Source: a virus. Taken from it: a stretch of DNA of 23,344 bases. A program made the translations under genes and the position numbers. Of the stretch, positions 1 to 23,344 are shown piece by piece. The number at the start of each line of letters is the position of its first letter. Position 1 is the first letter of the stretch. The notes beneath the pieces were generated by a model. The model saw only the letters and a list, made by a program, of their open reading frames with translations, did not search any database and was not told the origin of the DNA. The DNA is taken from positions 1 through 23,344 of the IMG/VR virus record IMGVR_UViG_3300006735_000270; one strand, given 5' to 3'.

Positions 1-737
1 AACACGCACGCAACGGGCAACCCTGTCGCCTCATAAACGCTTGCACCTGTCGCCATACCTTCGACCACAACCAACGAATCAATCTTCTCTAATGATTTAA
101 AGTCTGTGCCGATTAAAAATAGATTACCTTTAACTTCTCCAGCAGAAACGAAACGCTTTTGACCGTCCTCTTGTATGTATTGCAACGACCTGAGATCGCC
201 TTGTGTGTTGTAAATAGGAACAACTAATGCTTTATTGTGTAGCTTTAAAGAATAACTTTTGATTTGTTTAGATTCTAGATAAGTATGCTTGATAACCTCT
301 GAATAAGATTGAAACCTTTGTTCACAATCCTTTGCAACTTCCTCATATCTGGTTTGTTTTTCTTTCCTTGCCTCTTCTTGGGCTTGCTTTATTTTGGCTT
401 GTAAATCTTGTCTTTGATCTGGTGTAAGTTTGTTGACCGCAGCTGAACTCCATTTAAACTCCTCCCCCGTTCTCCAATTTCCGTAATTTGCGAATATGTG
501 ATTATCGACAACATTAATAACATACCAACCCGATTTTTCATTGCCTTTGTCTGGTCTAACTCCTGAAGTAGCTGTAACGGAAACTCGAACTAAGTCCCCT
601 GTTGTGTTTAAGAAACCAACATTTAAACCTATCGCTTGCATTTCTGCAATAAGGTCTTGTTCATTTCCTCTGTTTTTTTCTAAATAATTATTGTCTTTTA
701 CTAATCCGTATCGTTCTTTATATTTCTTGAGATCCAT
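1..737 (-). CDS. Toprim-domain DNA primase (P4/TraC-like), 3' end beyond window
   Basis: The reading frame opens at ATG 735-737 and stays open to the window edge, so 245 residues are visible and the C-terminus is missing. Residues 69-97 carry the SGWYVIN...NYGNWRTGEEFKW pattern seen upstream of the Toprim domain in phage/plasmid P4-alpha-type primases. Residues 105-142 are a charged helical linker. Residues 153-210 match the YLESK...LVVPIYNTQGDLRSLQYI...KRFVSAGEVKGN pattern of the Toprim core, and VVVEGMATG contains the Toprim catalytic glutamate at E226. The role is synthesis of primers for phage DNA replication; a C-terminal helicase domain is possible but lies outside the window. An AAGGAA Shine-Dalgarno 8 bases upstream supports the start. 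The gene overlaps the preceding one by 20 bases and is last visible in the replication operon. Confidence 0.85.
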   Translation of the reverse strand, partial: MDLKKYKERYGLVKDNNYLEKNRGNEQDLIAEMQAIGLNVGFLNTTGDLVRVSVTATSGVRPDKGNEKSGWYVINVVDNHIFANYGNWRTGEEFKWSSAAVNKLTPDQRQDLQAKIKQAQEEARKEKQTRYEEVAKDCEQRFQSYSEVIKHTYLESKQIKSYSLKLHNKALVVPIYNTQGDLRSLQYIQEDGQKRFVSAGEVKGNLFLIGTDFKSLEKIDSLVVVEGMATGASVYEATGLPVACV

Positions 738-1092
738 CTACCCCGTTCCTTGCTTGCTCATTTGCATAATTAAGATACTCACGAATTATCTTATTAAAAA
801 AATTCATGCGATCTTCCTCTGTCCAATCACGCAACGCCCAGCTTTTATTATCTTTAGATATTTCTATATACCTATCCCTTGATTGTGCTTTTGCATACGC
901 AACACCTTTCTGAGAAACTTGAGCAATGTTTTTTAATTTATTACCTTTGACTATTTCTTTTTGATGTTCCACGCAACAAGCTCCGTACCATTTATCCTCA
1001 AACTTTGTAAGTAGGCCGCCTACGGGGTTAAAACAATAACCACATAGGGAAGGCCTATCTACACTTAAAAAATTAAAATGGGATGTTTTCAT
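718..1092 (-). CDS. Hypothetical protein with a zinc-ribbon-like CxxC/CxxH motif
   Basis: I do not recognise the family of this 124-residue protein. It has C17-x2-C20 followed about 19 residues later by C40-x2-H43 (C39 adjoins), a spacing suggestive of a small zinc-binding site. The rest is basic and helical (KGNKLKNIAQVSQKG, then an aromatic/charged C-terminus). It starts 20 bases inside the SSB-like gene and ends 20 bases inside the primase gene, so it is co-translated with both. By position it could be a replication accessory or primase partner, but this is inference from context only. Confidence 0.6.
   Translation of the reverse strand: MKTSHFNFLSVDRPSLCGYCFNPVGGLLTKFEDKWYGACCVEHQKEIVKGNKLKNIAQVSQKGVAYAKAQSRDRYIEISKDNKSWALRDWTEEDRMNFFNKIIREYLNYANEQARNGVDGSQEI
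746..751 (-). promoter_or_regulatory. Ribosome binding site for the primase gene
   Basis: AAGGAA on the minus strand lies 8 bases before the primase ATG at 737. It sits inside the end of the upstream gene, which fixes the primase start within that overlap. Confidence 0.6.
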
Positions 1093-1537
1093 CGCCTGAT
1101 TCTTTTTTAGTTTCAGGTTCAGCTTTCTTTTCCGATTTTACTGACTTAGATTTAGGTTCTAGCCAACCTTTACCTTTACCGTCATCAATAGCTGGATAAC
1201 CCTTGTCATCAATAATGACATTGGCCCTAACTCTTGATCCCACTAGATCACTACTGTCATCGGGTAAACCATCTGGAAACCCACAAACCTTTGCGAGTTT
1301 ATCAAGCGATTGTAAACCGATCTCAATAGCGGAAGTGCTTGTTGAATGGTCAACGGTAAAAGTATGACCAACCAAGAAGTTAGGCTTATCAACCACTCTA
1401 AATAAAACTTTTAGAGCAACCCAACCATTTCTACCTGTGATCTCTTCATCCTGTGTGTATTCTAAGTCATACACACTTGGCTCAAGAGTTTCTAGGCTTG
1501 ATTCGTCAACTTGCGATTTATATTTACTTAAATCCAT
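1073..1537 (-). CDS. DUF669-type single-stranded DNA-binding protein
   Basis: This 154-residue protein resembles the DUF669 family of phage proteins. Its core has a substituted TGRNGWVALKVLFRVVD strand region, then VDHSTSTSAIEIGLQSLDKLAKVCGF, then LVGSRVRANVIIDDKG. The C-terminus is a lysine/glutamate-rich low-complexity linker (about 125-148) ending in DENIPF, an acidic IPF tip like that of bacterial SSBs, which recruits partner proteins. The expected role is coating ssDNA during replication and recombination. The start is supported by AGGAGA 4 bases upstream (1542-1547). The gene follows the Sak4-like ATPase and a small gene, and overlaps the next gene by 20 bases. Confidence 0.75.
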   Translation of the reverse strand: MDLSKYKSQVDESSLETLEPSVYDLEYTQDEEITGRNGWVALKVLFRVVDKPNFLVGHTFTVDHSTSTSAIEIGLQSLDKLAKVCGFPDGLPDDSSDLVGSRVRANVIIDDKGYPAIDDGKGKGWLEPKSKSVKSEKKAEPETKKESGDENIPF

Positions 1538-1545
1538 ATTTTCTC

Positions 1546-1746
1546 CTATCCTGGATCATAACTGTGGTAATCATTAAGGTAGTTAATGAGATCCTTGCAG
1601 TCTTGGTTAATAGCAATGAGATGATGAAGACCATCTATCGGAAGATCATTATTATCAGGATTTATAGTGTCTATAAGTGTAGATAATAATACATCTATCG
1701 TTGTCAAAGCACCTTTGCTTCTAGTGACATCATCAACTCTACTCAT
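1546..1746 (-). CDS. Small hypothetical protein in the replication operon
   Basis: This 66-residue protein is of unknown family, predicted to be mainly helical, with a hydrophobic middle (IDVLLSTLIDTINP). The ATG lies 8 bases inside the end of the ATPase gene, and the stop is 8 bases before the SSB start, so the gene fits the operon exactly. The packing is the main reason to call it real. No function can be assigned. Confidence 0.55.
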   Translation of the reverse strand: MSRVDDVTRSKGALTTIDVLLSTLIDTINPDNNDLPIDGLHHLIAINQDCKDLINYLNDYHSYDPG

Positions 1747-2482
1747 CTTTACCGCCTATCATGGCTGATCGAATCTCCTTCCAATCAAACGGTAAAGTAT
1801 CTGGAAGTGCATATCTATTCTTCGCAAGAAACGCAGGTTTCTCACGACAATAGGCTATAACATCTCCAGCTACGGCTTTTGTTGTCATCGTGCCACCTTT
1901 ACCTTGGACTTTAACAGTACCAAGTTTATAGTTGGCAAAGAAACAACAATCGCTGTTCTCTAAAACTAAATCCGCAGCCTTACGGTGCAGTTTTAATTCA
2001 TGGCGATCAAATGCCTCAATCTCGGGCGATTCAAACCTTTTGATTTGATTATGAGCAATCTGCAAAGTAATCATGCCTTTATCCTCTCTAAGAGTGTTAA
2101 GCAAATCTAAATATTGTCGCCAATACTTTAATACTTCTACATAACCTTTACCATAACCAGGTTGCTCAATGGATCTCCAACCATTGTCTTGACAGGCTTG
2201 ATCCCATATTAGTGGCTCTAACCAATCAAGTGAATCTACAACAACGGTTTTGTAATCGTGATCTTCCTCTACCAAATCTTTTAGATAACCCATAGCATCT
2301 TCAAAAGATTTACATAAAGGAAACTGAGGTGCTTCAATCGTACCCATACCATCTTCTGTAAGTATGAAGATAGGTTTAGGCATTGTTGATCCAAAGGTTG
2401 TTTTACCAATACCAGCACCACCATAGACAACAAGTCTTGGCGGTTTCTGTTTTGATTTAGTTCTAATATCAGCTAGGCTCAT
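1739..2482 (-). CDS. AAA_24 / Sak4-like RecA-fold ATPase (single-strand annealing type)
   Basis: This 247-residue P-loop ATPase has a Walker A GGAGIGKTT (G21-T29, with K27 and T28) and a Walker B-like VVVDSLDWLE with D83. The layout matches the AAA_24 phage family to which the Sak4 recombinases belong: short N-terminus, Walker A near residue 25, LTEDG strand at about 41-45, Walker B near 83, and a basic C-terminal half. These proteins act in strand annealing and exchange on ssDNA, usually with a phage SSB. The gene order here (nuclease, ATPase, SSB) supports that reading. It starts 4 bases inside the previous gene (ATGA overlap) and overlaps the next by 8 bases. A plain replicative role is the main alternative. 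Confidence 0.8.
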   Translation of the reverse strand: MSLADIRTKSKQKPPRLVVYGGAGIGKTTFGSTMPKPIFILTEDGMGTIEAPQFPLCKSFEDAMGYLKDLVEEDHDYKTVVVDSLDWLEPLIWDQACQDNGWRSIEQPGYGKGYVEVLKYWRQYLDLLNTLREDKGMITLQIAHNQIKRFESPEIEAFDRHELKLHRKAADLVLENSDCCFFANYKLGTVKVQGKGGTMTTKAVAGDVIAYCREKPAFLAKNRYALPDTLPFDWKEIRSAMIGGKDE

Positions 2483-2727
2483 TTGACCACCTCAACCTTT
2501 TTATCATCACCTTCTACAGCTTCTTTAAGTAGATCGCTGTAATGTTTTGCAAGAATGTCTAGCTTCTCAACCTCAAAGTTTGCATTGCTAACAATCTCAT
2601 TCTTTTGTCTATTGATTAACATAACCTTGTTATAAATAAGTTTATGTTCATCAGACAAATCATCTACCTTGTACTCTTTGCCGTCATCGGAAAAGCTAAA
2701 GGTAAGTTCTTCATTATTATCGGACAT
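2479..2727 (-). CDS. Small acidic/helical phage protein (DUF6447-like pattern)
   Basis: This 82-residue protein begins with an acidic segment leading to FSDDGKEYKVDDLSDEHKLI, a pattern I associate with small phage proteins of the DUF6447 kind. A long helix follows (about 30-72, LINRQKNEIVSNANFEVEKL). The function is unknown. Its ATG overlaps the nuclease stop by one base (TAATG), and its stop overlaps the ATPase start (ATGA). It may be an adaptor between the nuclease and the ATPase, but this is only a guess from position. Confidence 0.6.
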   Translation of the reverse strand: MSDNNEELTFSFSDDGKEYKVDDLSDEHKLIYNKVMLINRQKNEIVSNANFEVEKLDILAKHYSDLLKEAVEGDDKKVEVVK

Positions 2728-3464
2728 TATTTTTCTCCCATATTTAATTTATAAGTTTCACAAAGACTGCGTCCATTGCAGAATTTGCAATGATCCCCGA
2801 ATACATATCCAGGGCTTTCCTCAAAACAGGCTTCCGCCCGTGGTTTTAAGAAATCGTATCCCCAATTCACAAGGTTTTCTGCTGTGGTTTCCCATGTCTT
2901 AACAGCCTTTTCCTTCTTAACGCCTCGTGGTTGGACTATTGTTAGTTCAATCTTGGTGTCTGTATCTCCGTATCTGGACAACGCACCAAGCCCATAAATC
3001 ATTAGCTGATAATTGTTTTCAGGCTTTACAGGCCATTTGCCAGACTTTAAATCAATGACACATATCTTATCTTTAGCCAAGATAATCGCATCTGCTGTTC
3101 CCCAACAACTATCTGTAATTTCATCTATTGATACTTGTTCTTCAATCAATAGTTTGCCGTCAAGCTCTTTTGCTTTTGCTTGCACATACTCTGTATAGGT
3201 TCTAGCACAATCAATCATTTCTTGATCTATCTCAATCTCGAAATCTTCAACACTCTCTACTTTACCAAGCCAATAATCCTCTAATGTTATGTCACCATCT
3301 AGTCTATCCTTCATTATGATCTCACTTATTTGGTGGACCAATGTACCTGTAACTGCTGGTATAGATACCTGATAGGGTACTTGTGCAGCTAACTTAGGCA
3401 TACCTGGACATCTCGTCCACTTGTCCGAAGCTGATGGTGATAATAAAGCGTGTTTACTAGGCAT
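2727..3464 (-). CDS. Cas4/AddB-like PD-(D/E)XK nuclease with Fe-S cysteines (DUF2800-type)
   Basis: This 245-residue protein fits the DUF2800 group of the PD-(D/E)XK superfamily. Nuclease signatures in order are H44 in GTLVHQ, D125 in GTADAI, D138-L-K140 in VIDLKSGK, and Q153 in NNYQLMIYGLGAL. Four cysteines are spaced as in AddB/Cas4 iron-sulfur nucleases: C19 near the N-terminus, then C226-x2-C229-x5-C235 near the C-terminus. The likely activity is a metal-dependent ssDNA exonuclease that resects ends for the neighbouring Sak4-like ATPase and SSB. A CRISPR role is not suggested, since no cas genes or repeats are present. The start overlaps the HTH gene by 8 bases and the stop overlaps the next ATG by 1. 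Confidence 0.85.
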   Translation of the reverse strand: MPSKHALLSPSASDKWTRCPGMPKLAAQVPYQVSIPAVTGTLVHQISEIIMKDRLDGDITLEDYWLGKVESVEDFEIEIDQEMIDCARTYTEYVQAKAKELDGKLLIEEQVSIDEITDSCWGTADAIILAKDKICVIDLKSGKWPVKPENNYQLMIYGLGALSRYGDTDTKIELTIVQPRGVKKEKAVKTWETTAENLVNWGYDFLKPRAEACFEESPGYVFGDHCKFCNGRSLCETYKLNMGEK

Positions 3465-3669
3465 TACTGGAAATGTAAGACTCTTTTTCGTAATTTATAA
3501 CATCATCAAGGTCATAGTAAATCTTGCCTGTAATCTTCCAATGATTAGGCCTCTCACCTTTGAGCCTTCTGTTATCAATAGTTTTCTTAGTTACACCCCA
3601 CCTTTTAGCGAGTTCTTCCGCATCTATCGTGTTTGATATGTCAAAATCTTTTTGGTCTTTTATTTCCAT
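3457..3669 (-). CDS. MerR/excisionase-type helix-turn-helix DNA-binding protein
   Basis: In this 70-residue protein, residues 16-54 read as a winged HTH of the excisionase/HTH_17 type: IDAEELAKRWGVTKKTIDNR is the helix-turn-helix, and KITGKIYYDLDDVINY is the wing that ends the fold. It is the first gene of the replication operon and overlaps the nuclease by 8 bases. A regulator of the adjacent divergent intergenic region (3670-3757) is the simplest role. No integrase is visible, so an excision function has no support here. Confidence 0.75.
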   Translation of the reverse strand: MEIKDQKDFDISNTIDAEELAKRWGVTKKTIDNRRLKGERPNHWKITGKIYYDLDDVINYEKESYISSNA

Positions 3670-3757: not shown

Positions 3758-4090
3758 ATGTCGATTGATAATGCTACAAAAAGGGAATGGGATGAAGCCA
3801 GAAAGGGTACAGAGTGGGATCAAGAGATTGATATGCTTGCCTCAAGAAACCAAGTAGGTGGCGATCATTACAATAGAAGAACCAAAATACAGCCGATTGA
3901 ATATATATTGGCTAACAATATTGGTTGGTGTCTAGGTAATGTTATAAAACTTATTACCAGAGATAAGGAAAATAATGTTCAAGACTTGTTAAAGGCCAAA
4001 CATTATATTGAACTTGAGCTAGAGATGGTTCATGGGTGTGATAAAAACGGTAACAAGTTAGGTAAGTACACCAAGGAAATCTCCATATAG
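3758..4090 (+). CDS. DUF3310 family protein
   Basis: This 110-residue protein has residues 31-88 following the DUF3310 pattern of phage proteins: VGGDHY, then IQPIEYILANNIGWCLGNVIKLITR, then a basic stretch and VQDLLKAKHYIELELE. The family is widespread in phages and is sometimes labelled nucleotide kinase, but its function is not established. The gene is on the plus strand, opposite to nearly all others, and starts with AGGAG 5 bases upstream. It is probably expressed early from the divergent region. Confidence 0.8.
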   Translation: MSIDNATKREWDEARKGTEWDQEIDMLASRNQVGGDHYNRRTKIQPIEYILANNIGWCLGNVIKLITRDKENNVQDLLKAKHYIELELEMVHGCDKNGNKLGKYTKEISI

Positions 4091-4317: not shown

Positions 4318-4713
4318 TTAAATATTATCTAATATGTCCTTAAGGTTCTTAACAGGATCGTTGTTCTTCATGTGTTCATCGGCTATGGTTAATTGGTTCT
4401 GATCCATAGGTTTTATAAAAACTACATTTCTATGAGGCAAAGAAGCTAAAGCAAAGATATCTACAGCTTGTTCTTTGTAGTTTCTATTTTTAGTATTTGC
4501 GCCTCTACGCATATCAAAACGCCAATTTTTTCTACTTTTTTCTATCTTTGATTGAGTTTTAACTTGGACTTTGTAGAGTTTGTTATTGTGTTCAAAAACT
4601 AAATCAGCCTCAGATCCATGAGGTACAACCATGACAGTATCGGAAACCAAAGAGATGAGTGCTGCCGTGAGGTATTCACCTGATCGACCAACTCTTTCTG
4701 TGGCCCTTGGCAT
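4318..4713 (-). CDS. PD-(D/E)XK nuclease, resolvase/PDDEXK_5-like
   Basis: This 131-residue protein has the compact nuclease core: E13 in GRSGEYLTAAL, D37 in GSEADLVF, and Q50-V-K52 in YKVQVKTQ. This is the E...D...(E/Q)xK order of PD-(D/E)XK enzymes such as archaeal-type Holliday junction resolvases and the group I intron endonuclease-like PDDEXK_5 family. D85 in EQAVDIFAL is also typical. Probable roles are resolving branched DNA before packaging or another virion- or replication-linked cleavage. It begins 4 bases after the stop of the 1394-residue virion protein, so it appears to be expressed late with the structural genes rather than with the replication operon. The ribosome binding site is weak. 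Confidence 0.75.
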   Translation of the reverse strand: MPRATERVGRSGEYLTAALISLVSDTVMVVPHGSEADLVFEHNNKLYKVQVKTQSKIEKSRKNWRFDMRRGANTKNRNYKEQAVDIFALASLPHRNVVFIKPMDQNQLTIADEHMKNNDPVKNLKDILDNI

Positions 4714-4717
4714 AATT

Positions 4718-7700
4718 CTATTCTTCTAGTTTTGCTTGTTGTATTAGTTCTATTTTTTCTTGAAGTTCTGGATATCTTGACCAAGTTTCAAATCTAGCAA
4801 TTTCATTGTTGCCTTCTATTATCCTTTTAATCATTTTTTTCTTTTGGTATTTAGGCAGTTCTTTGTATCCTGGTGAAAGAATTTCATCCAGTATTTGTTG
4901 TTTTGTCCTTTGTAAAACATGCTGTGCCATCATATATTCGTATTGGTCTGAGTTTAAATCTACTCCCTGAATGGTCCTTCTTGGCATGCTTGGATAATAT
5001 TCAATATCTAAAAGCTCATTAAAGACAATATCGTTAGTTATTTGTTCTTTTCTTGCTGGTGAAAATACTTCTCCGAATCTTCCAAGAGCTTCTGGTGCTG
5101 CTCCAGGAGTGTACTTTATCGGTTCTCCAAATATATTTCTTCTTGTAGGAAGATTTACTGATATACCTGGAATTTTGTTCATAAGTGCATCAGTTAAACC
5201 TCTTACATCTCTAACATAAGGATCATCCATTCTTCTTATGTAGCCAGATACATTTGGAATCGGACTAGACAAGAAGTTATTCAAATATGTTGGGCCATAT
5301 CTTTCAGGATCATCTATTGCCTTAATAACATCGGAAACACCTCTAAGGTAAGTTTTATTTGTAATATTATCTGCAAATGAAGCTATTAGATATGCTCCTA
5401 CTTTACTTAATTCCTCTTGCAACTCTGTGTCTTGTGATTTTTGTTCTTCTCCCTCAGACACTAATACATTATCTCCAATCATTTGACTTGCAGTTACAAA
5501 GTCTGCTGTAAGGCCAAGCAAAATACCAAAAGGCTCAAACCTTTGATATGAAATATATTCATCACCAACTTTAATTGAATATTCTTGCCACCCCGTTTCT
5601 CTTAATACTGCCCTCTCTCTAACATCTTCAGGTCCTCTTCCTGTAATTAAGCCTTGCGAAGCATATAAACCAAGAACCGACATGACTCCACCAGTAAATG
5701 CTATTTTTGCTTTTGCTATATCTGCCTCTGCTCCACCAGCCTCAATAGCATCTTTGTACCTTTTAAAAATAAATCCTAGTGGTGTTCTTTCTCCAGCATA
5801 TTTAACAATATTGACTGGTGTTCTAATAAATGGAGCTATAAACCTTAATACTTTAAAATGTGGTTCTGATAATTGATTTTGTAACGATTGACCAAATTTT
5901 CCTAATGGATTTGTGTAAGTTTGATATCTTGCATAATCAGTAGCTTTTAAATCCAAGTCTGGAAGTTCGTCCATTGGGTTATCTAAAATCTCTTTTACTC
6001 TTTGCCTAACAGCATTTAATCCTTGTTTACCTTCTTTGATGGCTTGTCTAGTAGCTAACCCCATCACATCTTGTCTGTAATTTATTGCCTTAAAAAACAA
6101 ATCTTCTGCTGCTAATGCTCTAGTTGGTATTCTAACAATTTTTCCTGTTATACCGCCTATAGCTCGTTGCCTTGCAAGTTCAACTTTTAAAAATGGATCG
6201 GTAATATATTCTTCGTCAATAAGTGCTTTTGCTCCAGCTTTTAAACCATCTGCAAAACCAAGAATGTTGCCTATCATTCTTGCTCCTAGCTCCTTAAAAG
6301 TTAATCTATCAGCCTCTTTTGCACCTCTTAATAAACCAAATATTGCTGCTGTTCCTTGCTCACCAACAGACAATAAAATATTACTTGCATTACCAACCAT
6401 ATTAACAATGTGTGTTGGTGGTGCAGAAAGCAAAGCATTAATCCAGGCTTCTTGTATTTTGTCTAAAGTTGAAGGCTTCCAGGCCTCTTTTAAAAATTTA
6501 CTTACTTGTTGTGGATCATCTAATTTAGAAATAGCATCAGCCATAACATCTAAAATATCGGAACGGCCTTTATTTTCTTTGAAATATTTAGTAATTAATT
6601 TTGTTTTTCTGCCATCTTCAGCCTTAACTGGAACATCAAATGATTTTAAAACTCTACCAGCTTCAGCAGCTTGACCAACAAGTTTTTCTAAAATGCCAAC
6701 ATATCTTGTGATTGCTACATCAAACTCATATTTAAGTTCTGGTGTTGCTTTCGATGTATCTTTCATGGCCGCAGTTAAATCTGTTACCTCTTTAAGAGCT
6801 TCTGCATGAGCAACCCTAAGTCTATACATATTAACTGGATCTAATACTTTCCCCACTTCACCTTTTAATAATTGTTCTAAAGGTAATCCAGTTTCTTCAG
6901 CTAGTGCTTTTAAGTTTTCACCATTAGAGCCAAATTTAGTTACATTTCTTGCAACCTCAAGAGGTTCTTCATATTCTTCAGCTATCTTTTCTAAGGTTTT
7001 TCTTTCCGGAATACTTGCATCCAACCTATTCATGTTTACATTGATAATATATTTAGATTTCTTTTCAGGTTGTCTGCCTGGTGCTGTGGGTGGCACAACT
7101 TCCTCTGTAAATTTATTATCAATATCTACATCTTTTACATAATCCTCAAACTCTGTTCTTACTCTTGGAATAACATCTGCAAGATCTCTTTCCGACATCG
7201 GTGTTGATTGTATTTCAGGATCTTTAAAATCTTTAAGACTAGGCAAGCCAACATTTCCTTCTCGAATGTCTTGTTCAATTAATCTTGCTCTTTTTGTTTC
7301 TGAGTCAGATATTTTTGCCTCTAGTTCTAAAGCCTCTGTGCGTTGCTCAACAGATTTTAAAAGTTTTTCTACTTCTTCATCTGTAGTTCTATCAGGTCTA
7401 ATACCAAAAGATTCTGTTAAAAGTTTTCTTTTTTGTTCTATATCATCATTTATTTTTCTTGCTTGTTGTAAAGGCACTTGATCGTTAATGTGTACGCTAT
7501 TGTTATATAAGGCCTCTATAACTTCTTCTGTAATGTCCTCTTGTGGTCTGCCTTCAAGTGTTGCTCTTTCAAGTTGACCAAGGCCAAAAAATTGATCTTC
7601 GTCCATGGCTTCTGCTATCTCATCAAAGTCCATAGCACCACCTTTTCTTAAATAGCTAAGTGGTATTTTCCCGCCCAAGGCATCTGCTAACTCTGATTTT

Positions 7701-12540: not shown

Positions 12541-12591
12541 TTATGATCCTATAATTTTAGTTTTTACATCCCAAGTATATGAGATTGCCAT
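12541..12591 (-). pseudogene. Tiny ORF or remnant with a MAI(S/T)YTW-type N-terminus
   Basis: The ATG overlaps the tail fibre stop codon (TAATG) and encodes only 16 residues, [16 protein letters not shown], before a TAA. The first seven residues match the N-terminus of small tail-associated proteins found after fibre genes in marine phages (MAITYTW..., normally about 100 residues). It may be a decayed copy or a leader peptide coupling fibre and gp10-like synthesis. The family match rests on only a few residues. Confidence 0.35.
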
Positions 12592-14210
12592 TATGCGTTT
12601 TCCAATGTTTCTATTCTAGTTTCTAGTGCTTCTATTTTAGTTATCGCTTCTTGTAATGCACCTGTTAAAAGTGGTACAAGTTTTGCTTGGTCGATACCTT
12701 GATAAACAGGGAAAGTATGTGAAGCTGTCCAAGTACTATCAGAAGGGAACTTAGGATTTTCTCCTGTTTTACCTTCTGTCCATTCATCTTCTGTAACACC
12801 ATCAGCAAAAACACTTCCATCGGATGAAAGTACTGCATTTTCTGCTGTTTTAGTTTCGTTATGAGTTCCTGTTACTGCTTCAGGTACAACTGTACTTGCC
12901 TCATGTGCAATAAATCCATCAACCAAAGTATTTGTTTCATCTTCAATCCAATTAAACCTTCGAGGTTGTAGTTCTTTTACTCTAGTAATTGCACCAGTCA
13001 TATCTACAACATTTTCTTTTAATCTATGATCTGAAGATGTGTTAAAAGATGTAGAACTAGCATTGTTTGTTATAGTGCCAACAACTGAACCACTTGAATT
13101 TTGAAATGCCATAGGGATACCGTTTGTATTTAACCCTTTAATAACAAAACCATGATTAGTTGATATGTTATGTTGCATAAACATTTGAGCATAGTAATTG
13201 GTTGAGCCTACAGCATAATCACCGTTTATATAAACACCACCATTAGTAGCTACAGTTGTTTTAGATGTCATACCAAAGAAAAGACCACCTGTTGAATCTA
13301 GCCTCATGCGTTCTGAATTAGAGCCACCAGTAGCTTGAGTAAAGAACTGCATGTCGGCAGCATCATTATTGCCACCTACTCTACTTGCTCTGATCATGGC
13401 AACACTATCACTAGCGTTTTCAAAAATAATACTACCTACTGCACCATTAGATGATTTATTACCATTTAGTTTTAAATCAACCCCTGTATCTGAAGCTGAA
13501 GTTGCTATTTCTAAATCTACATCTGGACTTGAAGTTCCAATACCTACTTTTCCTGCACCTGTAACTCTAAGCCTTGATATACCGCCAGAATCTAAAACTT
13601 GCAAAGCGTGGTCTGTTGCATTTGTTCCAGCTCGTATTTCCAAACCATAGTTTACGCCTGTTCCTGCTGTATTTCTTATAAATGCAGTATTTTCATTTGA
13701 AGTAGAAGATTCAACATGAAGAGGGTTAGATGGACTTGTACTGCCTATACCAACCTGCTCTGACGAATTTATGGTGATTGCTGTTGCATCAGCATTGTCA
13801 TCAATACCCCTTGAGGTAAAGTTTGTAGAAACAGTTAAATCTTGTGTAATCGTTACATCTTGGTTTTCATCAATTGTAATCGCAGGAGTTGTACCAACTG
13901 CTGATCCTGAACCAATAATTAAATCATCGGCACTATCGTCTAAACCAATATAGAAGTCTTGAGCATTACCATCAAAGACAAGTTTAGTATCTTCAGCACC
14001 GCCATCACCTATTGTTAAACTTGGGTTAGTCCCTTTAAGAACAACTGCGCCACCGAAGTCAACTTGGCCCATATCAACCGCAGTTCCAGATAAACTGAAA
14101 ATGCCATCGACTGTATCCAAGTCATTATTAATCTTTGTACCCCAGGTATCGGTGGATGCACCGACCTCTGGTTTGGTTAGGTTTAAGTTAGTAGTAAATG
14201 TATCTGCCAT
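12591..14210 (-). CDS. Tail fibre/spike with C-terminal Peptidase_S74 chaperone domain
   Basis: The N-terminus of this 539-residue protein ([20 protein letters not shown]) is the usual virion-attachment start of such fibres. Residues about 45-380 are low-complexity beta repeats ([65 protein letters not shown]) typical of trimeric fibres. The intramolecular chaperone begins at [11 protein letters not shown]393 in SDHRLK is the expected autocleavage serine, with R396 and K398. [15 protein letters not shown] and VDGFIAHEA complete the S74 signature, and a coiled coil (about 515-537) ends it. The domain trimerises the fibre and is then clipped off. AAGGAAAG precedes the ATG. Confidence 0.88.
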
Positions 14211-16511: not shown

Positions 16512-17447
16512 TTAGGATGTGCTTAAGTCTGCAACAACACCATGAGCAGCTTCGTTGGACACTTCTAGTCCATACTCAACTACGATCATTTTTGTTTCTG
16601 CATCACCAATAGTAGCGATATCTACTGTTTGGAAATTTCTTAAGTAAGCAACTTTAGCAAATTCTGGATCTACTAAAAGAAGCGATCTTTCTCTTGATCT
16701 GTTTGATGGAACGATTTTGAGTTCACCAAAGTCAGATGAATAGATAGATACTGAAGCCTCTACAGTATTTTGATCCACAAATTGTCTAGCTTGTGATCTA
16801 CCTGTGAAACCACTAATAACTTGTTTGTTATGTGGGCCACAAATAGCCAATGATGGTTCACCACCATTTGTGAAAGCTAACTCAAGTGTATCTTTGAGTA
16901 GAGTTTCAGTTAAAGCTCTTTGAGTTCCGTCAGTTGGAGCAGCACCACTTCCTGTAGAAGCACCATTAGTACCTCTAGAATCGTTTGAAGTGATCCAAGA
17001 TTCAAAACCACCAGTTACACGAGCAGTTGTCGCATTACCAGTTGTTTTAGCGCCTTTTTGACAGAGAGCTTGTTCCATATCTCTTTTAAGAGCTTTAGAC
17101 ATAATAGCAAGTTGATGAGCCATTTCTGACCTTTTACCTGCTGGGTCTGAACTCTCTTGAGATCCTGTTACAGTTGCATCTCTTTTTGAGATCATACATA
17201 CATTGCTTGCTCTTACAGTAGCAGTTGAAGCTGCTCTTGAAAGTTCAAAGCCTTCTAATTCTCCACTTGCACTTGGTGTAGGTAGAGATTCTGTTTGCCA
17301 ATCAAACACCACATTGCTCACATTTCGTGATCCGATTGAGGACATGAACGGAGTTTGCATAGGAGAGATGTTGTAAATGATATTACTTAAATCTTCTCTA
17401 TCAGCAGTTGCGGTGTAAGTATCAAAAGCGTTAGTTACTTTTGCCAT
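16512..17447 (-). CDS. Major capsid protein (SU10-type, DUF5309, HK97 fold)
   Basis: This 311-residue protein has an N-terminal DREDLSNIIYNISPMQTPFMSSIG, followed by VVFDWQTESLPTPS. This is the signature of DUF5309/SU10-family capsid proteins. Further cues are NVCMISKRDATVTGSQES, RDMEQALCQKGAKTTGN, GGEPSLAICGPHNKQVISGF, then strands EASVSIYSSDFGELKIVPSN and LLLVDPEFAKVAYLRNFQTV. It builds the icosahedral shell. The gene follows the scaffold gene by 18 bases and has AAGGAG 7 bases before its ATG. An intrinsic terminator closes it, as expected for the most abundant product. Confidence 0.9.
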   Translation of the reverse strand: MAKVTNAFDTYTATADREDLSNIIYNISPMQTPFMSSIGSRNVSNVVFDWQTESLPTPSASGELEGFELSRAASTATVRASNVCMISKRDATVTGSQESSDPAGKRSEMAHQLAIMSKALKRDMEQALCQKGAKTTGNATTARVTGGFESWITSNDSRGTNGASTGSGAAPTDGTQRALTETLLKDTLELAFTNGGEPSLAICGPHNKQVISGFTGRSQARQFVDQNTVEASVSIYSSDFGELKIVPSNRSRERSLLLVDPEFAKVAYLRNFQTVDIATIGDAETKMIVVEYGLEVSNEAAHGVVADLSTS

Positions 17448-22084: not shown

Positions 22085-22254
22085 TAGTGTAAAGTTTTTT
22101 CCTCAAAACTTATGATTTCAGAATGTTCGGTTACTTGACCACCTGACATAAGTATCATTATTTGAAGTGCATGATCTTTATTTTTAGCCTTGATCTCAGA
22201 ACCTTTATAGACCATATCTCCTTCCATTACTTCAATGTCAAATATTTTGTGGGA
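22084..22254 (-). CDS. Small hypothetical protein overlapping the portal end, 56 aa
   Basis: I chose ATG 22252-22254 (MSHKIFDIEVMEGDMVYKGS) over the longer frame at 22332, which would overlap the portal gene by 95 bases. The chosen start still overlaps by 17 bases and has only a short-spaced AGGA. A later ATG at 22215 with AAGGAG close by is an alternative. The product has a strand-rich start and helix (KNKDHALQIMILMSGG). The function is unknown. Confidence 0.55.
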   Translation of the reverse strand, partial: SHKIFDIEVMEGDMVYKGSEIKAKNKDHALQIMILMSGGQVTEHSEIISFEEKTLH

Positions 22255-23344
22255 CATTTCCTGTAAATAGTCCTTGAGCTTGGTCTTTTGCAGTTTGCCT
22301 GATATTTTCTCGGTCACGCTCCATGATAGCATTTATTTCTGCTATGTTGACCTGAGTTCCATATTTAGCTAACAATTCTGCTGCTTTCAATCTAATCTGT
22401 GCTTCTTCAATGTCTCTGTTTCTGTCATCGTCCATGATAATCTTCATGCGATCTGTTTCTGCATCAATGATGGCTTTCTGAGCTTGAACTTGAGCCTTCT
22501 GTGCTTCTGCTTGTGCCAATAGTTCTGCTGCATCAGGTTTAGTTTCCTGTGGCATAGGTGGCATTGGCGGTACTTCAGTATTGATAAATGATTCAGGATC
22601 TTTAAATCCAGCCATCTCGATCATTCTGCTAAGTGTGTTTGCGTATTGTTGTAGAGAAACCATAGGGTTACTTGGCCCTAGGGTTGAAAGTATTTGCTCT
22701 TGCTTACCTGCAAATTGCCCTAAGATTGCAAACTTTTCTTCATCGGATGATTTAGAGATTGCAACATTAACCACTAAGTCTTTATCGGTATTCCAATATC
22801 TAGGATCAACAGGAACAAACTTACCATTAAGTCTAAAGACATCTTGTGCATTTTGATGTTTGATAACCAAGTTGTTAATCAAGGTAAATAAATCTTTCAT
22901 TCCGCCTTCGGCAAAGTGTCTACAAATTAATTCGATACGACCTTGTGCGCCAGACATGGTTGCTGCTACCGCAGCTTTGGTGCTTGATTGTAAAGCATCA
23001 GCATTTAAACCTGCTGAAGCCTTAGATACACCTGTTCTATTTTCTTTACTTTCATCTAAGTAACCAAGAACAGGGAACGCTTCCTTGCCAACAAAAGGGA
23101 CTGAGAAGGGTTGTACCATTCCTGGCGCACGCACACGAATTGGCTGTCCAATGTCTGTGTTTAAGACATCATCGATGTTGACTTGTCCTTCGACAACAGC
23201 CATTCGTGGGAAAATAGAATGCCCTAACGAATCTAGTGTATCTCGCATAATTTGAGATTTTGCTGCTTGGATAGGTTTGAGGTAATCCGCAGGGCATGAT
23301 CCGATTGCAGTATGCGGTTCAGGATCAGGGCAAAACATGACAAT
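22238..23344 (-). CDS. Portal protein (P22-like), C-terminal part, 5' end outside window
   Basis: The 368 visible residues start inside the gene: the ATG at 23338 is an internal methionine and the frame is open to the edge. The pattern FCPDPEPHTAIGSCPADYLK, then IQAAKSQIMRDTLDSLGHS, then MRVR-like loops (IGQPIRVRAPGMVQPFSVPF) and DALQSSTKAAVAATMSGAQG, matches P22-type portals of short-tailed phages. The C-terminus is a long coiled coil rich in QAQAEAQ repeats (about 265-350), corresponding to the portal barrel or a DNA-contacting extension. It forms the ring through which DNA is packaged and ejected. Confidence 0.8.
   Translation of the reverse strand: MVMFCPDPEPHTAIGSCPADYLKPIQAAKSQIMRDTLDSLGHSIFPRMAVVEGQVNIDDVLNTDIGQPIRVRAPGMVQPFSVPFVGKEAFPVLGYLDESKENRTGVSKASAGLNADALQSSTKAAVAATMSGAQGRIELICRHFAEGGMKDLFTLINNLVIKHQNAQDVFRLNGKFVPVDPRYWNTDKDLVVNVAISKSSDEEKFAILGQFAGKQEQILSTLGPSNPMVSLQQYANTLSRMIEMAGFKDPESFINTEVPPMPPMPQETKPDAAELLAQAEAQKAQVQAQKAIIDAETDRMKIIMDDDRNRDIEEAQIRLKAAELLAKYGTQVNIAEINAIMERDRENIRQTAKDQAQGLFTGNVPQNI

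Follow-up and report, generated by a model that had tools for sequence, protein, structure and literature searches.

A small gene exchanged whole between nuclease and Sak4 genes in a predicted phage recombination operon

Genes of the operon and their conservation

We analysed a 23,344-base stretch of viral DNA (IMG/VR virus record IMGVR_UViG_3300006735_000270, positions 1–23,344; hereafter the window) and concentrated on a run of minus-strand genes that probably serve a marine podovirus-like phage as its operon for recombination and replication. The run consists of a helix–turn–helix (HTH) gene, a DUF2800 nuclease gene, a small gene (sm1), the gene of a Sak4-like ATPase of the AAA_24 family (sak4), a second small gene (sm2), the gene of a single-stranded DNA-binding protein (SSB), a gene for a cysteine-bearing protein (Cys protein) and a TOPRIM-helicase gene, in this order; the ends of neighbouring genes overlap or almost touch (Table 1). 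Among relatives of this operon, sm1 is replaced as a whole gene, boundary to boundary. A sequence-only reading of the window had described a compact recombination cassette at 1073–3464. Its open reading frames (ORFs) for the nuclease, the 82- and 66-residue proteins, Sak4 and SSB are all present in place, and these five fall within that range, but the ‘zinc-finger’ protein (718–1092) and the primase (from 737 down), which it had counted in, lie just outside.

Table 1. Features of the predicted operon, with window coordinates
Feature	Position	Strand	Basis
HTH (excisionase/MerR-like) protein, 70 aa, first in the run	3457..3669	-	phrog_66 2.9e-07; homologue precedes the nuclease in relatives
DUF2800 PD-(D/E)XK nuclease, 245 aa	2727..3464	-	PF10926 2.8e-53, PDDEXK_1 1.5e-09; C19 + C226/C229/C235, D125, D138-L-K140
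sm1, 82 aa, between nuclease and Sak4	2479..2727	-	family profile, AF2 model, gene-exact replacement
Sak4-like RecA-core ATPase/annealase (AAA_24), 247 aa	1739..2482	-	PF13479 1e-45; phrog_124 1.2e-38
sm2, 66 aa, dispensable; fills the slot from sak4 to ssb	1546..1746	-	in 39/75 readable loci; pooled dN/dS 0.24
DUF669-like OB-fold SSB, 154 aa	1073..1537	-	profile matches of relatives, OB-fold model
Codons of the SSB C-terminal tail DENIPF	1076..1093	-	[I/L/V]PF end in 73/73 complete relatives, 24 distinct tails
Cys protein, 124 aa, CxxC...CxxxH, probable zinc binder	718..1092	-	C17, C20, C39, H43 invariant in 17/17 rows
TOPRIM primase-helicase, N-terminal part, cut by the window end	1..737	-	full-length relative in L001 (Toprim_3 2.2e-10, AAA_25 3.5e-33)

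The core of the cassette proposed from the sequence, a nuclease with Cas4-type cysteines, a Sak4-like ATPase and an SSB with an IPF tip, is borne out by profiles, invariant residues and a conserved tail. The nuclease matches the DUF2800 family in a Pfam scan and carries its catalytic motif (G-T-x-D ... D-x-K); D125, D138 and K140, together with C19, C226, C229 and C235, are invariant in all 16 aligned rows. One N-terminal and three C-terminal cysteines are the layout required for the Cas4/AddB type, and we take this four-cysteine pattern to be that of the Cas4/AddB iron–sulphur nucleases. A sequence search found no solved relative of the nuclease. Sak4 matches PF13479 over residues 14–224 (profile positions 2–195 of 195), which places it in the RecA-core family, and a PHROG scan assigns it to a Sak4-like annealing protein profile; its Walker-A G26-K27 and D83-S84 are invariant in 18 of 18 rows, and its one solved relative by sequence is weak (ORF016, 3e-4).

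Relatives of the SSB match DUF669 in 11 of 19 aligned rows (best 2.5e-4) and two SSB profiles, phrog_6015 (11 of 19) and phrog_378 (7 of 19). An AlphaFold 2 (AF2) model of the window protein, with a predicted local distance difference test score (pLDDT) of 76, has an oligonucleotide/oligosaccharide-binding (OB) fold that is nearest to PrgE of plasmid pCF10 (Z 8.8 and 8.4), with several further OB proteins at Z about 5; no solved relative was found by sequence search.

A search of IMG/VR with the window Sak4 gave 80 loci (L001–L080), in which the order HTH–nuclease–slot 1–sak4–slot 2–SSB–Cys protein–primase is kept wherever the contig is long enough. The gene run is not a product of chance: 80 IMG/VR contigs repeat its order and coupling, and both small ORFs evolve as genes. 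A remote set was made of Sak4 relatives of about 39–71% identity in bacterial genome contigs and of viral relatives of a cyanophage Sak4; 117 loci from it and four isolate phages, 121 in all, were examined with profiles. The SSB occurs in 95 of these 121, the nuclease in four and sm1 in two. L152 and L153, which have both nuclease and sm1, are members of the clade of the window. L186 has the HTH gene, a PDDEXK_15 gene, the nuclease, Sak4, an SSB ending in DDEIPWAT and the Cys protein, without sm1 and sm2, and L269, a viral relative of L186, has the same gene order and neither small gene. The core thus persists without sm1 and sm2 in these two loci, as far as gene content tells. The fourth nuclease locus, for which there is no Sak4 row, must be L085, a Ruegeria phage with a DUF2800 gene.

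The SSB tail is conserved among the close relatives. Of 75 loci with an SSB match, 73 include the complete C terminus, which in all 73 is [I/L/V]PF preceded by acidic residues, with 24 different forms of the last 14 residues. Among the 95 SSB genes of the remoter Sak4 loci and the four isolate phages, just three have a PF ending. Several DUF669-like SSBs beside remoter Sak4 genes (L155–L268) have basic tips such as PPWKR and no acidic IPF tip.

The surroundings of the operon contain further recognizable genes. A DUF3310 protein (2.1e-10) is encoded at 3758–4090 on the plus strand, divergent from the operon, and a second small PD-(D/E)XK nuclease-like gene (PDDEXK_5, 1.9e-07) at 4318–4713 on the minus strand adjoins the gene of a large internal virion protein. 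The small PDDEXK_15-type gene of L186 directly precedes the DUF2800 nuclease and differs from this PDDEXK_5 gene. Also on the minus strand are a protein resembling tail fibres that has a Peptidase_S74 chaperone domain close to its end (12591–14210), a DUF5309-type capsid protein (16512–17447) and an SU10-type portal (22238–23338, 6.6e-91). The capsid protein is nearest to that of Microcystis phage MJing1 (52.7%), a phage whose own DUF2800 gene lies two genes ahead of a DNA polymerase gene and not beside an annotated Sak4.

Exchange of sm1 and variation of slot 2

Slot 1, between nuclease and sak4, holds an ORF of the sm1 family in 78 of 80 loci; the exceptions are L060, in which the contig begins inside the region, and L063, which has a longer, unlike ORF. 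After family searches with sm1 classes A, C and D, the reach of which is close relatives only, 151 loci were scored for the family; they are not all independent, as L086–L151 repeat 31 contigs of L001–L080 by name. The family profile matches in 144 of the 151, in some contigs twice, and no other genomic place of sm1 was found in this set: 139 copies lie directly between nuclease and sak4, four are at a contig edge and one, in L066, is an over-extended ORF at the same place (the nuclease there ends at 4758). A class B search returned eight loci, of which seven include both neighbouring genes and one breaks off behind sm1.

Four classes (A–D) cover all 143 sm1 sequences scored. Their profiles are linked strongly between A and B (probability 97), moderately between A and D (82) and weakly between A and C and between B and D (41 and 26), and most have in common a turn resembling G-x-x-Y, a D-L-S or D-L-D motif and, after it, a long stretch in which a leucine is conserved. 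The AF2 model of the window sm1 (pLDDT 87) consists of a two-strand β-hairpin and one 47-residue helix, a shape that suggests a coiled coil. Pfam gives no match for the window sm1 even at E values up to 10; DUF6447 (PF20045) is weakly matched by 5 of 11 class D sequences (best 2.7e-05) and by 1 of 17 mixed rows (best 1.2e-4), and a literature search for DUF6447 found no paper naming the family. Nine of 17 sm1 rows match phrog_21153, of unknown function (best 7.4e-06), and scattered single weak Pfam and PHROG matches are taken for chance. A fold search with the sm1 model against viral structures gave nothing at E 0.001 or better.

The pooled ratios of non-synonymous to synonymous substitution rates (dN/dS) show that both small ORFs are genuine genes. 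Within class A loci, and with pairs that are not independent, pooled dN/dS is 0.17 for sm1 and 0.24 for sm2, next to 0.14 for the nuclease and 0.09 for sak4; the corresponding sm1 values are 0.23 in class D and 0.44 in class B.

The exchange of sm1 is seen in comparisons of 73 of the 80 loci; loci were dropped if the nuclease or sm1 was missing, if sak4 was not complete or if the nuclease lay at a contig edge. Close pairs were taken as those in which the last 600 bases of the nuclease gene and the last 660 of sak4 are 95% or more identical in DNA. In 40 of these 132 pairs the sm1 proteins are less than 50% identical, and the classes found within near-identical flanks share about 34% protein identity. 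None of the other genes falls below 50% in close pairs (HTH, nuclease and Sak4, 0 of 132; sm2, 0 of 96; SSB and Cys protein, 0 of 99), and none of the six falls below 80%, the lowest value being 81% for the SSB. In seven pairs compared in blocks of 30 columns, identity drops in the first bases of sm1 and is back at the start of sak4. The borders are cleanest in L015/L017, L034/L037 and L018/L013; the sak4 side is more diverged in L031/L032 and L145/L110, and L010 has an insertion on that side.

On a tree of the joined nuclease and sak4 flanks (92 distinct rows of 135), sm1 changes class 12 times, against a minimum of three. We consider the pair counts firmer than the tree because the flanks can themselves be mosaic, as in L003 and L010. 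L003 combines a diverged nuclease with a window-like downstream part, the junction being the nuclease/sm1 border, and in L010 an otherwise window-like cassette contains a foreign sm1 and a sak4 with an insertion. The swaps are unlikely to be an assembly artefact: several contigs from different metagenomes carry each swapped class, and the border coincides with the gene ends. The classes are presumably exchanged by recombination in the conserved flanks.

The SSB gene also varies among near-identical cassettes. A second allele, about 80% identical to the usual one, is present in L015, L019, L021, L022, L027, L028, L034, L035, L038 and L041. In 20 rows it was seen only with sm1 class A (6 of 11, compared with 0 of 8 for class B and 0 of 1 for class C), and with three independent pairs on supported branches there is no power to assess linkage between sm1 class and SSB allele.

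Slot 2, between sak4 and the SSB gene, differs from slot 1. Among the 75 loci that have both of these genes, sm2 is present in 39 and missing or replaced in 36, and it is therefore dispensable. The 36 comprise 18 loci with a CxxC...CxxC ORF, 10 with another CxxC-type ORF (a tally in which L068 was read and L069–L071 were assumed alike from equal coordinates), four with a helical-looking ORF of 66–79 residues and four with nothing in the slot (L073–L075 and L080). A role of sm2 as an adaptor, as put forward in the sequence-only reading, is rejected, on the terms of that reading itself, by its absence or replacement in these 36 of 75 readable loci.

A reading of the operon and its rivals

Our best explanation of the whole, which we hold to be probable, is a recombination and replication operon in which the SSB tail loads Sak4, sm1 is an exchangeable accessory and sm2 occupies a variable slot. 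The DUF2800 nuclease, with its Cas4-type cysteines, would trim DNA ends and so leave single strands, which the DUF669-like SSB would coat; the acidic [I/L/V]PF tail of the SSB would load the Sak4 ATPase, and Sak4 would anneal complementary strands into concatemers or primed forks for the downstream TOPRIM-helicase. This order of resection, coating, loading, annealing and extension follows from the protein families and from work on phage HK620. Our analysis shows the gene content and its order, the invariant residues, the conservation of the tail and the swaps; we infer all biochemical activities from relatives. In HK620, the relevant passages of PMC5928155 report that the last six SSB residues (NDYPPF) are required for binding of Sak4 to SSB-covered DNA and for stimulation of annealing, and those of PMC5499656 report that replication of staphylococcal phage phi11 needs both sak4 and ssb. 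Because the HK620 tail recruits Sak4 in that account, Sak4 itself is the best-supported target of the DENIPF tail and a likelier one than the small proteins; the precedent thus points away from the earlier suggestion that the tail recruits one of them. The slot 2 position would be either empty or filled by unrelated small proteins. With its hairpin and long, coiled-coil-type helix, sm1 would keep a constant place and be exchanged as a whole gene among four classes, and what it acts on is a guess.

It is over sm1 that readings diverge. If sm1, with or without sm2, were a dedicated adaptor joining nuclease, Sak4 and SSB in one complex, and the SSB tail bound one of the two, its place directly between nuclease and sak4 would be expected, as would gene ends that overlap or almost meet in the manner of translational coupling; the predicted coiled-coil-type shape, a common one among adaptors, would also fit. 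The place between the partners, on which the sequence-only reading relied, is constant for sm1 in the clade (78 of 80 loci), but nuclease and Sak4 pairs with at least 95% identical DNA carry sm1 classes that are about 34% identical, the L186 and L269 cassettes do without either small gene, sm2 is missing or replaced in nearly half of the readable loci, and in HK620, going by the same passages of PMC5928155, the action of the tail on Sak4 involves no third protein. A co-evolved sm1 adaptor is unlikely because sm1 is not tied to particular nuclease or Sak4 alleles. The swapping weakens the idea of a fixed adaptor and favours an exchangeable accessory; we judge the dedicated-adaptor explanation decidedly unlikely. 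Several points nevertheless weigh against the operon reading that we prefer. The window SSB itself matches no Pfam or PHROG model, a 4Fe–4S cluster in the nuclease is predicted from the four cysteines only, the near-constant presence of sm1 and its within-class purifying selection show that it is of consequence, and at 34% sm1 identity a structural adaptor could, if tolerant, still function.

The gene-exact swaps between near-identical flanks would also fit an sm1 that is directed at the host, for example by inhibiting an end-degrading nuclease of the host or a defence that reacts to recombination intermediates, sitting in the place of a Gam-like gene and exchanged in an arms race. According to the sections of PMC8093625 and PMC5928155 consulted, genes like Mu gam lie upstream of sak4 in Firmicutes phages, Abc2, a modifier of RecBCD, adjoins sak4 in HK620, and Sak4 has been reported as a target of abortive infection (PMC8093625). 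Against this, searches that included Pfam and PHROG scans found no homology of sm1 to Gam, Abc2 or a known inhibitor, and its dN/dS within classes is below 1; a host-directed role seems doubtful to us. A more specific form of this idea, in which slot 1 is a dedicated exchange slot for a host-directed accessory and at least four classes are traded whole through the nuclease and sak4 flanks while the recombination machinery stays unchanged, is rather unlikely. Alternatively, sm1 could be a protein under low constraint, a spacer or a mild regulator of operon translation, with swaps that hitchhike neutrally on mosaic recombination. Phage genomes are mosaic, and across classes just the general shape of hairpin, DLS-type turn and long helix is kept; yet the other small genes of the operon (HTH, sm2 and Cys protein) show no swaps in the same pairs, and sm1 is under purifying selection within classes, so we likewise doubt this explanation.

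Whichever applies, the exchange of sm1 is a clean natural experiment: the nuclease and annealase stay nearly the same while one small gene beside them takes very different forms. Should sm1 be directed at the host, its classes would constitute a compact family of marine phage proteins that are candidates for acting against hosts or their defences; should it be an adaptor, they would show how far an adaptor can change while the enzymes do not. The 24 distinct tails form a conserved test set for the way in which phage SSB tips load Sak4.

Comparison with known systems

Because sak4–SSB pairs and DUF2800 modules are both in print (in the parts of PMC5928155 and PMC8093625 used here), the DUF2800–sm1–Sak4–SSB arrangement is a variation on a known type; what is new in it is the exchange of sm1 as a whole gene, with the proviso that no literature search was aimed at swapping. 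As far as the text of PMC8093625 drawn on goes, DUF2800 and AAA_24 are placed in different modules. Its duf2800–gp2.5–polA module, like the window, combines a DUF2800 PD-(D/E)XK nuclease and an OB-fold protein within one operon, but the window nuclease is grouped with Sak4 and a DUF669-like SSB and has the HTH gene and sm1 as direct neighbours, and none of the ten window proteins scanned matched DUF2815 (gp2.5). The sak4–DUF669 pairs of Firmicutes phages, as presented in the same portions of that paper, have both protein families in equal order; upstream of them are gam-like, DUF1351 or DUF2483 genes, whereas the window has DUF2800 and sm1. PrgE of plasmid pCF10, solved with bound DNA, is the closest solved fold of the SSB model, but with 10 to 13% sequence identity this plasmid protein is related by fold only. 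The Sak4–SSB module of HK620 (Hutinet et al. 2018, PMC5928155, in the excerpts relevant here) shares with the window a Sak4 beside an SSB with an acidic tail and a terminal Pro-Phe that is needed for Sak4 loading. In the window, by comparison, the SSB has an [I/L/V]PF tip and other small genes are present, and where HK620 relies on Abc2 to make the host RecBCD an end-processing nuclease, the window operon has a DUF2800 nuclease of its own.

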